A stretch of 53,680 nt of DNA, from positions 46,490-100,169 of the forward strand of contig NZ_AOMD01000027.1 of assembly GCF_000336915.1 (NCBI RefSeq). The letters are read 5' to 3'. The stretch's first letter is position 1; each line of letters starts with the position of its first letter. Below, piece by piece: positions 20,424-44,661 of this stretch. Position numbers and translations under genes: made by a program. Under the pieces are notes generated by a model that saw only the letters and a program-made list of their open reading frames with translations, did no database searches and was not told the origin of the DNA. The DNA is from Halococcus saccharolyticus DSM 5350. Its GTDB lineage: Archaea; Halobacteriota; Halobacteria; Halobacteriales; Halococcaceae.

Positions 20424-20921
20424 CTACTCGACGAGTTCGATCGCGTCGTCACCGTTCGGCACCGCGCAGATGAACGCCCCTTCCTCGTCTCCCTCGTTGC
20501 GATACCAGTGGACCGTTCCTGCCGGGATCAACAGCGAGTCGCCGGCGCTCACGGTGTGTTCCTCGTCGTCGTCGACGGCTTCTGCTCGCGGGCCTTGCCC
20601 GCTCGCACGGCCCGAGGCACAGTGTGCCTCGCTGTCGCCGTCTTCCCGAGGCGTCTTCGACGCCTCGCTGATACCGACCACGTACTCCCCCTCCAGAACG
20701 TACTGCTCGTGTTCGACTTCGTTGGTGTGTTTCGGGACCTCGGCCCCGGGAGCGAGCGTGAACCGCCGGATGGCGAAGTTTGGCGCACCGCGAGCTTCGT
20801 CGACAAGCACGCCCTTTTCGAGGCCGTCGGCTGCATCGACGGGCTCGTACGCGACATCGTCGGCTCGTCGCACGACCGGCGACGGCTCGGATGACTGGGA
20901 CGGTTCGGGTGACTCGCTCAT
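20424..20921 (-). CDS. Cupin-domain protein with a hairpin-coded insertion
   Basis: A 165-aa single-domain cupin, probably a metal-binding beta-barrel. Cupin motif 1 is PKHTNEVEHEQYVLEGEYVV (His and Glu ligands) and motif 2 is GDSLLIPAGTVHWYRN. Between them is an unusually long hydrophilic insertion of about 38 residues (from about SEASKTPRED to VDDDEE). The DNA of this insertion consists largely of three consecutive hairpins (see 20588-20667), so the loop seems to come from inserted palindromic DNA that kept the frame. The enzymatic activity is unknown. Confidence 0.85.
   Translation of the reverse strand: MSESPEPSQSSEPSPVVRRADDVAYEPVDAADGLEKGVLVDEARGAPNFAIRRFTLAPGAEVPKHTNEVEHEQYVLEGEYVVGISEASKTPREDGDSEAHCASGRASGQGPRAEAVDDDEEHTVSAGDSLLIPAGTVHWYRNEGDEEGAFICAVPNGDDAIELVE
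20588..20667. repeat. Three tandem hairpins inside the cupin gene
   Basis: Three perfect stems follow each other: GCGGGC-CTT-GCCCGC (20588-20602), CGAGGCAC-AGT-GTGCCTCG (20613-20631) and CGAGGCGTC-TTC-GACGCCTCG (20647-20667). Each has a 3-base loop. The last two share the ends CGAGG/CCTCG but differ inside, with both arms changed together. The third codes for part of the cupin loop without a frameshift. Confidence 0.75.
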
Positions 20922-43399: not shown

Positions 43400-44545
43400 T
43401 TACGCGTTCGATCCCGCCCCCGTCAGCGGAACGACTACATGATCGGTGTCGGCCACGATCCCGCGCTCGCGGTATTTGCGGAGGGCAGCCGGTGCGACCG
43501 CACACGTCGGCTCGACGTCGAACCCCGCTCGACCGAGTCGCTCGTGTTCCTCGCGCGTGGTTTCGGTGTCGATCGCGATGGCGTCGCCGCCGGTGGTCTG
43601 AATCGCGTCGACGATCGCCTTGATTCGGACGGGGTCGCGAATCTGGATGCCGTCGGCGAGATCGTTCTGGTCGTCGGAATCGTTGGCGTCGTTGCGTTCG
43701 GCGCGGCCGTCGAGCCTGTCGACGACCGGTGCGTAGCCAGCGGCCTGGGCACCGAGCAGTCGGGGTATCTCGTCGATCCAGCCGGCCGTGTGGAGTGCGC
43801 GGAACCCGCGGTACGCGCCCAGAAAGAGGGTGCCGTGGCCGAGCGGACAGACGACCGCCTCCGGCACCTGCCAGTCGCACTGGGCGGCGAGTTCGAGCGC
43901 GAACGTCGCGGTGCCGGCGAAGAAGGCGGGATTCCAGGCGTGACTCGCGTACCAGCCCGCACCGTCCCCGACGGCCTCGATCGCGGCCGCTGTGACGTCC
44001 GCCCTCGTCCCTTCGATTCGCACTACGTCGGCCCCCGTGCGCTCGATCGCCCGGAGTTTCGCCGATTTGGCGTCGGCAGGGACGTAGATCGTGGCGTCGA
44101 GTCCCGCACGGGCGGCGTAGGTCGCGATCGCGGTGCCGGCGTTGCCCGAGGAGTCCTCGATCACGCGGTCGGCCCCACACTCGATCGCGCGTGCGATCGT
44201 CGTCGCCGCGCCGCGATCCTTGAAACTACCCGTCGGCGAGACGTACTCGAGTTTGAACGTCGCGTCCCAGTCGAGCGCATCGCCAGCCGATGGCCGGCTT
44301 TCCGAGGGACGTTGTCCCTCGCTATCAACGATCGGGGCCCAACCCGCACCGAGAGCCACCGCTCGTTCAACGGGCAGGAAGTCCGCGAACGCCCAGAGTC
44401 CGTCGCGAGTGTCGAGATCGGCGAACGCGGGTGCGGGGCCGTCCGGCAGCGGTTGGGTGGCGAAATCGAGCGGCTGGCCGCACTCGCAGCACCAGCGGTC
44501 AGCGTAGGTGTTGCCGCAGGCAGGGCAGCGGAGATCGGCGGACAT
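43400..44545 (-). CDS. Threonine synthase-like PLP enzyme
   Basis: A 381-aa fold-type II PLP enzyme. The N-terminus has a zinc ribbon (CPAC and CCEC), the PLP lysine is in SPTGSFKDRGA near residue 107, and the phosphate loop is DSSGNAGTAIATYA near 130. This is the archaeal threonine synthase layout, which converts phosphohomoserine to threonine, but related enzymes share it. A short stretch, SEGQRPSESRPS near residues 75-86, is coded by a perfect hairpin and looks inserted. No other threonine genes are nearby. Confidence 0.82.
   Translation of the reverse strand: MSADLRCPACGNTYADRWCCECGQPLDFATQPLPDGPAPAFADLDTRDGLWAFADFLPVERAVALGAGWAPIVDSEGQRPSESRPSAGDALDWDATFKLEYVSPTGSFKDRGAATTIARAIECGADRVIEDSSGNAGTAIATYAARAGLDATIYVPADAKSAKLRAIERTGADVVRIEGTRADVTAAAIEAVGDGAGWYASHAWNPAFFAGTATFALELAAQCDWQVPEAVVCPLGHGTLFLGAYRGFRALHTAGWIDEIPRLLGAQAAGYAPVVDRLDGRAERNDANDSDDQNDLADGIQIRDPVRIKAIVDAIQTTGGDAIAIDTETTREEHERLGRAGFDVEPTCAVAPAALRKYRERGIVADTDHVVVPLTGAGSNA
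44303..44321. repeat. Hairpin inside the threonine synthase-like gene
   Basis: CGAGGGAC-GTT-GTCCCTCG is a perfect 8-bp stem with a 3-base loop. It has the same CGAGG/CCTCG ends as the hairpins inside the cupin gene. It encodes part of a Ser/Arg/Glu-rich insertion without disturbing the frame. Confidence 0.65.
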
Positions 44546-44614
44546 GGTTGGGAAAGCGGGCGCGGCGAACCAGTAGGTGACGGTTGCGGGGCGGTGGCGG
44601 TGCGGTCCTGGCGT

Positions 44615-44661
44615 CCTGCGGTCGCTCTGCGACCACAGGGCTCAGGAGAGCAAGCTCTCCT
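44615..44661. repeat. Two hairpins at the far end of repeat copy 3
   Basis: CCTGCGGTCGC/GCGACCACAGG (44615-44639, one mismatch, 3-base loop) and AGGAGAGC-AA-GCTCTCCT (44644-44661). They extend copy 3 towards the threonine synthase-like gene start and are absent from copies 1 and 2. Confidence 0.65.

Follow-up and report, generated by a model that had tools for sequence, protein, structure and literature searches.

The window, the whole stretch of 53,680 nucleotides from Halococcus saccharolyticus that was analyzed, contains a cupin-domain gene whose reading frame runs through 99 nt of hairpin-forming DNA (Table 1). The outer edges of this insert (20572 and 20670) were placed from the alignment with orthologues and from the unit ends. 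A sequence-only reading of the locus had described three perfect stems with 3-nt loops in a cupin gene, two of them sharing CGAGG/CCTCG ends, with the frame kept throughout. The stems are found at 20588-20602, 20613-20631, and 20647-20667, the latter two have the identical ends, the Pfam match agrees with the cupin assignment, and translation of the gene shows that the frame is kept. The same reading gave a loop of ∼38 residues; the inserted stretch is instead about 33 residues. It had also called the hairpins a tandem array. Three hairpins are indeed present, but a fourth, outer stem (20574-20579 with 20637-20642) had been missed, which makes the arrangement nested instead of purely tandem.

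Table 1. Coordinates of the cupin locus, its insert, and the second unit-bearing gene of the window
Feature	Position	Strand	Description
Cupin-domain gene holding the insert	20424..20921	(-)	PF07883, E 1.1e-16; 165 aa from predicted start ATG at 20921
Whole in-frame insert, 99 nt	20572..20670	(-)	45-nt layer 1 interrupted by the 54-nt layer 2
Layer 1, 45 nt	20635-20670 + 20572-20580	(-)	Hairpin 1 + GACGGC-GAA-GCCGTC hairpin
Hairpin 1	20647..20667	(-)	9-bp stem, loop GAA on coding strand
Outer stem GACGGC (20637-20642) / GCCGTC (20574-20579)	20574..20642	(-)	Split between GA and A here
Layer 2, 54-nt dispersed two-hairpin unit CAGCGAGG...GAGCAGA	20581..20634	(-)	Model R1, E 4.9e-10
Hairpin 2, first hairpin of the 54-nt unit	20613..20631	(-)	Perfect stem
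Hairpin 3, second hairpin of the 54-nt unit	20588..20602	(-)	GCGGGC-CTT-GCCCGC, 6-bp stem
PALP-family gene with second unit	43403..44641	(-)	PF00291, E 7.9e-64
Diverged second unit (SEGQRPSESRPSAGDA)	44275..44322	(-)	Same direction and frame; R1 E 0.19, weak alone

On the coding strand, the order is hairpin 1 (20667-20647), GACGGC followed by GA (20642-20635), hairpin 2 (20631-20613), hairpin 3 (20602-20588), and A followed by GCCGTC (20580-20574); the outer stem thus encloses hairpins 2 and 3, and the fold of the insert is nested. Hairpin 2 can be drawn as 8 bp with a 3-nt loop or as 9 bp with a one-base loop, and the stem of hairpin 3, only 6 bp, is extended by tandem G.A mismatches and an outer stem of 3 bp.

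When positions 20570-20668 (99 nt) were folded as single-stranded DNA, the z score was -6.35, and when they were folded as RNA it was -5.41; in each case, 0 of 200 shuffles folded as well. Three stems of ≥8 bp within 80 nt occurred in 0 of 60 third-order Markov copies of the window, a strict cut-off at which the real cupin site itself has only two such stems. Across the whole window, there are 11 stems of ≥8 bp, near the Markov mean of 8.25. The insert region (residues 88-116) has a pLDDT under 50 and is predicted to be disordered, lying between two strands, which is consistent with the earlier proposal that the hairpins occupy a tolerant protein loop.

Two layers of insertion among cupin orthologues

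Cupin orthologues were present in 44 of the 60 genomes, H. saccharolyticus included. Of 30 loci given, 26 were parsed, and in 21 of these 26, a set that includes the H. saccharolyticus locus, the stretch between the first and second cupin motifs measures 27 residues (the short form). The longer loops among the 26 measure 33 residues in L030, 42 in G008 and G039, and 60 in H. saccharolyticus and G003. Of the four loci not parsed, three (L014, L028, and L034) have a short loop by eye, and in L036 (G007) the orthologue appears disrupted after the first motif. Among named haloarchaeal cupin loci (80 given; L232 and L262 not parsed), the loop is short in 72 of the 78 parsed, the six longer ones being L226 from Natrinema ejinorense, L225 from Halobonum, L228, L237, L239, and L252. 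Because most orthologues have the short loop, the extra residues are insertions; distant orthologues with a loop of the same length and no hairpins were not seen among these loci.

Several of the longer loops carry one layer. In G039, L225, and L228, hairpin 1, or a hairpin related to it, is accompanied by the GAA-closed hairpin GACGGCGAAGCCGTC, with the outer GACGGC/GCCGTC stem closed by GAA and unsplit. G008 has hairpin 1 or a relative followed by the GAA-closed hairpin GGCGGTGAAACCGCC, its loop also empty, and L239 retains GACGGCGAAGCCGCC. In H. saccharolyticus and G003, 54 nt sits between the GA and the A of this GAA loop, and in N. ejinorense (L226) another 54-nt unit, identical to that of H. 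saccharolyticus at 37 of 54 positions, lies at the same base. The comparison of orthologues at the DNA level that had been proposed for this site therefore finds most loci without hairpins, some with layer 1 only, and H. saccharolyticus and G003 with both layers. The earlier suggestion of repeated insertion or copying gains support from these layer-1-only intermediates and from the recurrence of the 54-nt unit in the genome and in other genes. Two parts of that suggestion change: the palindromic unit does repeat, but what repeats is a pair of hairpins, 45 or 54 nt long, rather than a single hairpin, and the second event is real, but its unit entered the hairpin loop of the first. The 45-nt unit is the older and the 54-nt unit the younger in the H. 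saccharolyticus cupin.

The cupin tree (101 rows, 103 columns) is poorly resolved and was used only for two starred groupings, the pair L226 and G039 and the genus clade; L029, L232, L245, L255, L262, L293, L301, and L302 were left out, as was L036. In this tree, the filled L226 pairs with G039, in which the loop is empty (support 100/96), and the H. saccharolyticus cupin falls in the genus clade (99/90) together with G008, whose loop is empty; H. saccharolyticus and G003 are not sisters within that clade. The simplest reading of these sequences would be two separate fillings of one GAA loop, one in the H. saccharolyticus lineage and one in N. ejinorense. Alternatively, the loop alone could have been transferred between species.

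Hairpin 1 varies as well. Its loop is GAA in H. saccharolyticus and TTC in G003 on the same stem, and the GAGGCGTC/GACGCCTC pairing of H. saccharolyticus is replaced by GATGCGCC/GGCGCATC in G039 and L228, paired changes under which the stem stays perfect. Compared with window positions 20647-20667, L011, L228, and L225 have a hairpin 1 altered by paired changes with its stem perfect, and the hairpin is broken in L226 and L012.

A dispersed two-hairpin family inside and between genes

A covariance model (R1) built on the core of two hairpins located the 54-nt unit at 28 places in the H. saccharolyticus genome at E≤0.01. A refined model (R2) gave at least 48 places in G002, at least 47 in G003, and at least 97 in G017, with family matches at E≤0.001 in at least 40 of the 60 genomes, H. 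saccharolyticus included; all of these counts are lower bounds, as only part of the first-look candidates was scored. In an even sample of 80 phylum genomes, H. saccharolyticus and 7 of 10 others of its order matched. None of the 69 phylum genomes outside the order did, a zero to which base composition may contribute.

In four genomes, 149 matches were merged into 142 places, a set without loci L047, L054, L058, L059, L061, L063, and L068, of which some duplicate other loci and some are weak; flanks were taken for the listed G002 and G003 copies and for only 25 loci of G017. The unit is about 45-58 nt long and consists of two different hairpins that keep one order, direct and not inverted, usually starting with [T/C]AGCG and ending with AGA. 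The commonest start is GAGTAGCGAGG (21/142), others being of the CGACAG, CGATAG, CCGAG, and CCACG types, and GTAG is frequent before hairpin 1, with many copies lacking it. Intergenic copies such as L040, L041, L044, and L043 have the core embedded in longer repeats with T-runs at their borders (GTTTTTGCGAG... and ...AAGTAAAAAGG), which might serve convergent genes as terminators. The flanks of intergenic copies are themselves part of larger repeats, and pairing orthologous copies by their flanks was unhelpful.

Host genes in the H. saccharolyticus genome belong to the FAD-oxidase, radical SAM/Mob_synth_C (MoaA-like), topoisomerase (TopoI), GNAT acetyltransferase, SBP56, nitroreductase, and chlorite-dismutase (HemQ-like) families. 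In orthologues of these first seven host genes from nine other genomes of the genus, the insert position is mostly gapped. Alignment of 24 chosen stretches gave extra DNA relative to orthologues of 51 nt in SBP56, 51 nt in nitroreductase, 45 nt in HemQ, and 99 nt in GNAT; gaps were wider in MoaA, FAD oxidase, and TopoI, and the insert ends are ill-defined in these three and in GNAT. The SBP56 copy is common to H. saccharolyticus and G003, and the nitroreductase copy to H. saccharolyticus and G002. The PALP gene of the window carries a further, diverged copy, whose G003 orthologue scores 34.4 bits; this unit, 15 residues, is present in H. saccharolyticus, G003, G002, G001, G009, and G004 and absent from G008, G006, and G005. 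G003 has two units in one GatB/GatE-family gene (L168, 1201-1252 and 1495-1546) and further copies in PaaA/PaaC and PALP genes, and G017 and G002 have one copy each, in an FAD-binding and a radical SAM gene. From these alignments, short repeats appear able to provide archaeal proteins with additional peptide loops.

The MoaA genes show some variation at the loop that bears the unit in H. saccharolyticus. This loop is shorter in G002 and G003, and in the orthologue of G007 (L107) it has GACGCGAGCAAAGCGAGC in place of the unit, perhaps a remnant left when a unit was lost.

Reading frame, triloops, and a proposed target site

A strict coding test (same best frame in both flanks, no stop, codon score above threshold) was passed by 11 of the 142 places and failed by 131. 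All 11 copies are read in sense and in the same phase. They correspond to about ten events, the SBP56 copies of H. saccharolyticus and G003 being one. The used frame is stop-free in 113 copies, which is 0.163 of all stop-free frames, and the probability of nine further frame agreements by chance is about 8e-8. The other five frames are also stop-free in most copies. Six coding copies outside the strict list, identified through Pfam or orthologues (both cupins, GNAT, nitroreductase, L197, and the PALP gene of the window), agree in frame; the exception is a 45-nt unit nested in the GNAT copy, which is read in another frame. Among the six possible peptides, the one from the used frame (like SEARSASDRSSGQSPRED) is the least basic, with an acid-minus-base value of -1.95 compared with -2.60 to -3.70 for the others, and it is polar (GRAVY -1.04), with two sense frames still more polar; one copy with N was skipped in these figures. 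We infer that halophile proteins tolerate the used-frame peptide best.

The loops of the hairpins are also biased. Among 129 distinct elements, there are 189 hairpins with a 3-nt loop and a stem of ≥5 bp, a count made without elements over 70 nt, and 186 of them are closed by C-G. The triloop is GNA in 66, TNC in 88, and another sequence in 35, so that GNA or TNC accounts for 154 of 189 hairpins, which are not independent since copies share ancestry. Outside the insert, 1 of the 30 window hairpins (stem ≥6 bp) has such a loop, a TNC. GAA, GGA, TTC, and TCC are all found in otherwise identical stems, and on the coding strand of the strictly coding copies GNA occurs 10 times, TNC 2 times, and other loops 7 times. 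A TNC loop on one strand is a GNA loop on the other. Because both GNA and its complement are common as loops, the folded form that matters is probably DNA rather than RNA. The C-GNA-G sequence is described as a motif of very stable DNA mini-hairpins (PMC6479982).

When the unit was removed in silico, 7 of 139 places were left with a 5-9-bp hairpin whose loop is GA^A (the caret marking the joint); shuffled flanks gave a mean of 0.50 such hairpins and never more than 3 in 2000 shuffles. These seven places represent perhaps 4-5 independent events, with N. ejinorense counted besides about four: the H. saccharolyticus and G003 cupins count once, and the pairs L180/L207 and L142/L208 are apparently orthologues or duplicates. 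At only 7 of 139 places, the GA^A target is not a general rule. Nesting was also found by eye in two other genes: the GNAT copy has a 45-nt unit inside its second hairpin, and in FAD oxidase an older element has itself received an insertion.

Proposed mobilization of the unit and its relation to known systems

Taking these results together, we consider it probable that the cupin site arose by two successive insertions of a dispersed haloarchaeal two-hairpin DNA element into a disordered turn. The dispersed family, the presence and absence of the units among orthologues, their single direction and frame, the nesting, and the loop bias are the observations that support this, and movement is read from comparison between species. 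In the course that we propose, a two-hairpin unit with triloops that are mainly C-GNA-G or its complement would be copied to new places and could insert into the GAA loop of a hairpin already present, including one of its own kind. Copies that land in genes would persist only if the frame is kept. Folded single-stranded DNA would serve as target as well as moving form, and an enzyme acting in trans would recognize the unit ends. Recombination between species could be another route by which loop alleles spread.

The alternative that comes closest, which we regard as unlikely yet serious, is replication template switching, in which the polymerase would jump from one hairpin to another with the same GCGA/AGC microhomology, so that the hairpin pair is copied into a different loop. 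Such jumps have been documented (PMC8794818, PMC8604942), would keep stems perfect and flip loops, and need no element enzyme; the GAA and TTC loops of hairpin 1 in H. saccharolyticus and G003 and its compensated stems in G039 and L228 fit this process, as does the absence of Y1_Tnp from G000, G003, and G017. However, the unit ends recur in independent insertions (SBP56, nitroreductase, and both cupins), which random jumps would not produce, and reverse-complement loop pairs in identical stems make up 18 of 110 (0.16) where 0.163 is expected for independent loops. Loop inversion was accordingly rejected as a statistical signal, the GAA/TTC pair being the one orthologous case. Because the unit ends recur, an enzyme acting in trans on folded single-stranded DNA seems likelier than template switching, which fits the loop interchange and the compensated stems. 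It is improbable that the units act as RNA, as transcription or mRNA-processing signals of which the genic copies are by-products. The 131 places that fail the coding test, several of them between T-runs, and the strong RNA fold of the cupin insert would agree with such a role, but GNA and its complement are both common, giving no overall strand preference, and copies lie in unrelated enzyme genes with no evident RNA role. Rfam 15 gave 0 matches at the gathering score in eight loci, and a further Rfam search gave only one match at chance level, which lies outside the insert.

A search for Y1_Tnp (PF01797) found none in the element-rich genomes G000, G003, and G017, the last of which has the most copies and is only 77% complete; control genomes were positive as expected. 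The domain occurs in 25 of the 60 genomes, and its presence does not track copy number. These results, together with the direct rather than inverted order of the hairpins and the many copies without GTAG, make it quite improbable that the units are REP/RAYT-type palindromes moved by a Y1 (HUH) transposase, despite their small size, high copy number, and frequent GTAG before hairpin 1 and despite the occurrence of bacterial REPs within ORFs (PMC3733652); RAYT/IS200-type mobilization was rejected for lack of Y1_Tnp in those three genomes. Least credible of all is chance, whereby GC-rich coding DNA would have formed hairpins in an ancestral long loop: the number of long stems in the window is near the Markov rate, but orthologues lack the loop, the unit recurs in the genome, and the DNA fold is far stronger than that of shuffles, and we take the empty orthologues and dispersed copies to refute it. 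A tRNA-type bulge-helix-bulge intron was dropped on paper, as no more than a 3-nt loop is present once the site is joined.

IS1397 enters the REP loop. Like IS621 and ISKpn1, it is described as mobile DNA that inserts into palindromic repeats (PMC1525189), but these are full insertion sequences with transposases, whereas the guest here is a gene-less two-hairpin unit. Template-switch hairpins (PMC8794818) and the coding palindromes of Nematomorpha mitochondria (PMC6649704) resemble our case in perfect stems despite sequence change, in loop inversion, and in palindromes that lie within coding sequence; as described, they are not dispersed units with a shared linker and ends, and the palindrome arms of Nematomorpha code for conserved residues, not for a loop that has been added. 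The GTAG/CGTC-tagged bacterial REPs are small palindromes, mostly extragenic and some intragenic, and many haloarchaeal units start with GTAG; the accessible text names such REPs for bacterial phyla only (PMC3733652). The haloarchaeal unit differs in having two hairpins in direct order, a tag that is not constant, and no Y1 transposase in three element-rich genomes.

The closest likeness is to the Rickettsia palindromic elements, short palindromic units found in frame in unrelated protein genes and absent from orthologues (PMC10969869, PMC3733652). The haloarchaeal units likewise lie in frame in unrelated protein genes and are missing in orthologues, and by this analogy the family appears to resemble the Rickettsia elements in kind. 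It differs, in a comparison by description only, in its archaeal host, in its 45-58-nt two-hairpin unit compared with about 150 bp, and in inserting into hairpin loops, nesting, and having GNA/TNC loops. Housekeeping genes with palindromic inserts that keep the frame have been described in Rickettsia and for some bacterial REP families (PMC10969869, PMC3733652), and in the accessible passages of a MITE review, archaeal MITEs include those of Halobacterium and Haloquadratum, with frequent in-frame palindromes described only for Rickettsia. No report of archaeal in-frame palindromic elements was found in the open-licence PMC literature.

More tentatively, the family might be a gene-less mobile DNA of haloarchaea whose paired, folded mini-hairpins home on the GNA triloops of other DNA hairpins, those of the family among them, build nested trees, and supply a stock disordered peptide in a single frame to housekeeping proteins, a picture that we hold as a real possibility at somewhat less than even chances. 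With empty sites, a near-constant frame, and a recognizable GAA-triloop target, the movement of such units is testable in culturable haloarchaea. Some of the lineage-specific disordered loops of haloarchaeal proteins may also be explained by this family, which bears on annotation and on structure prediction.
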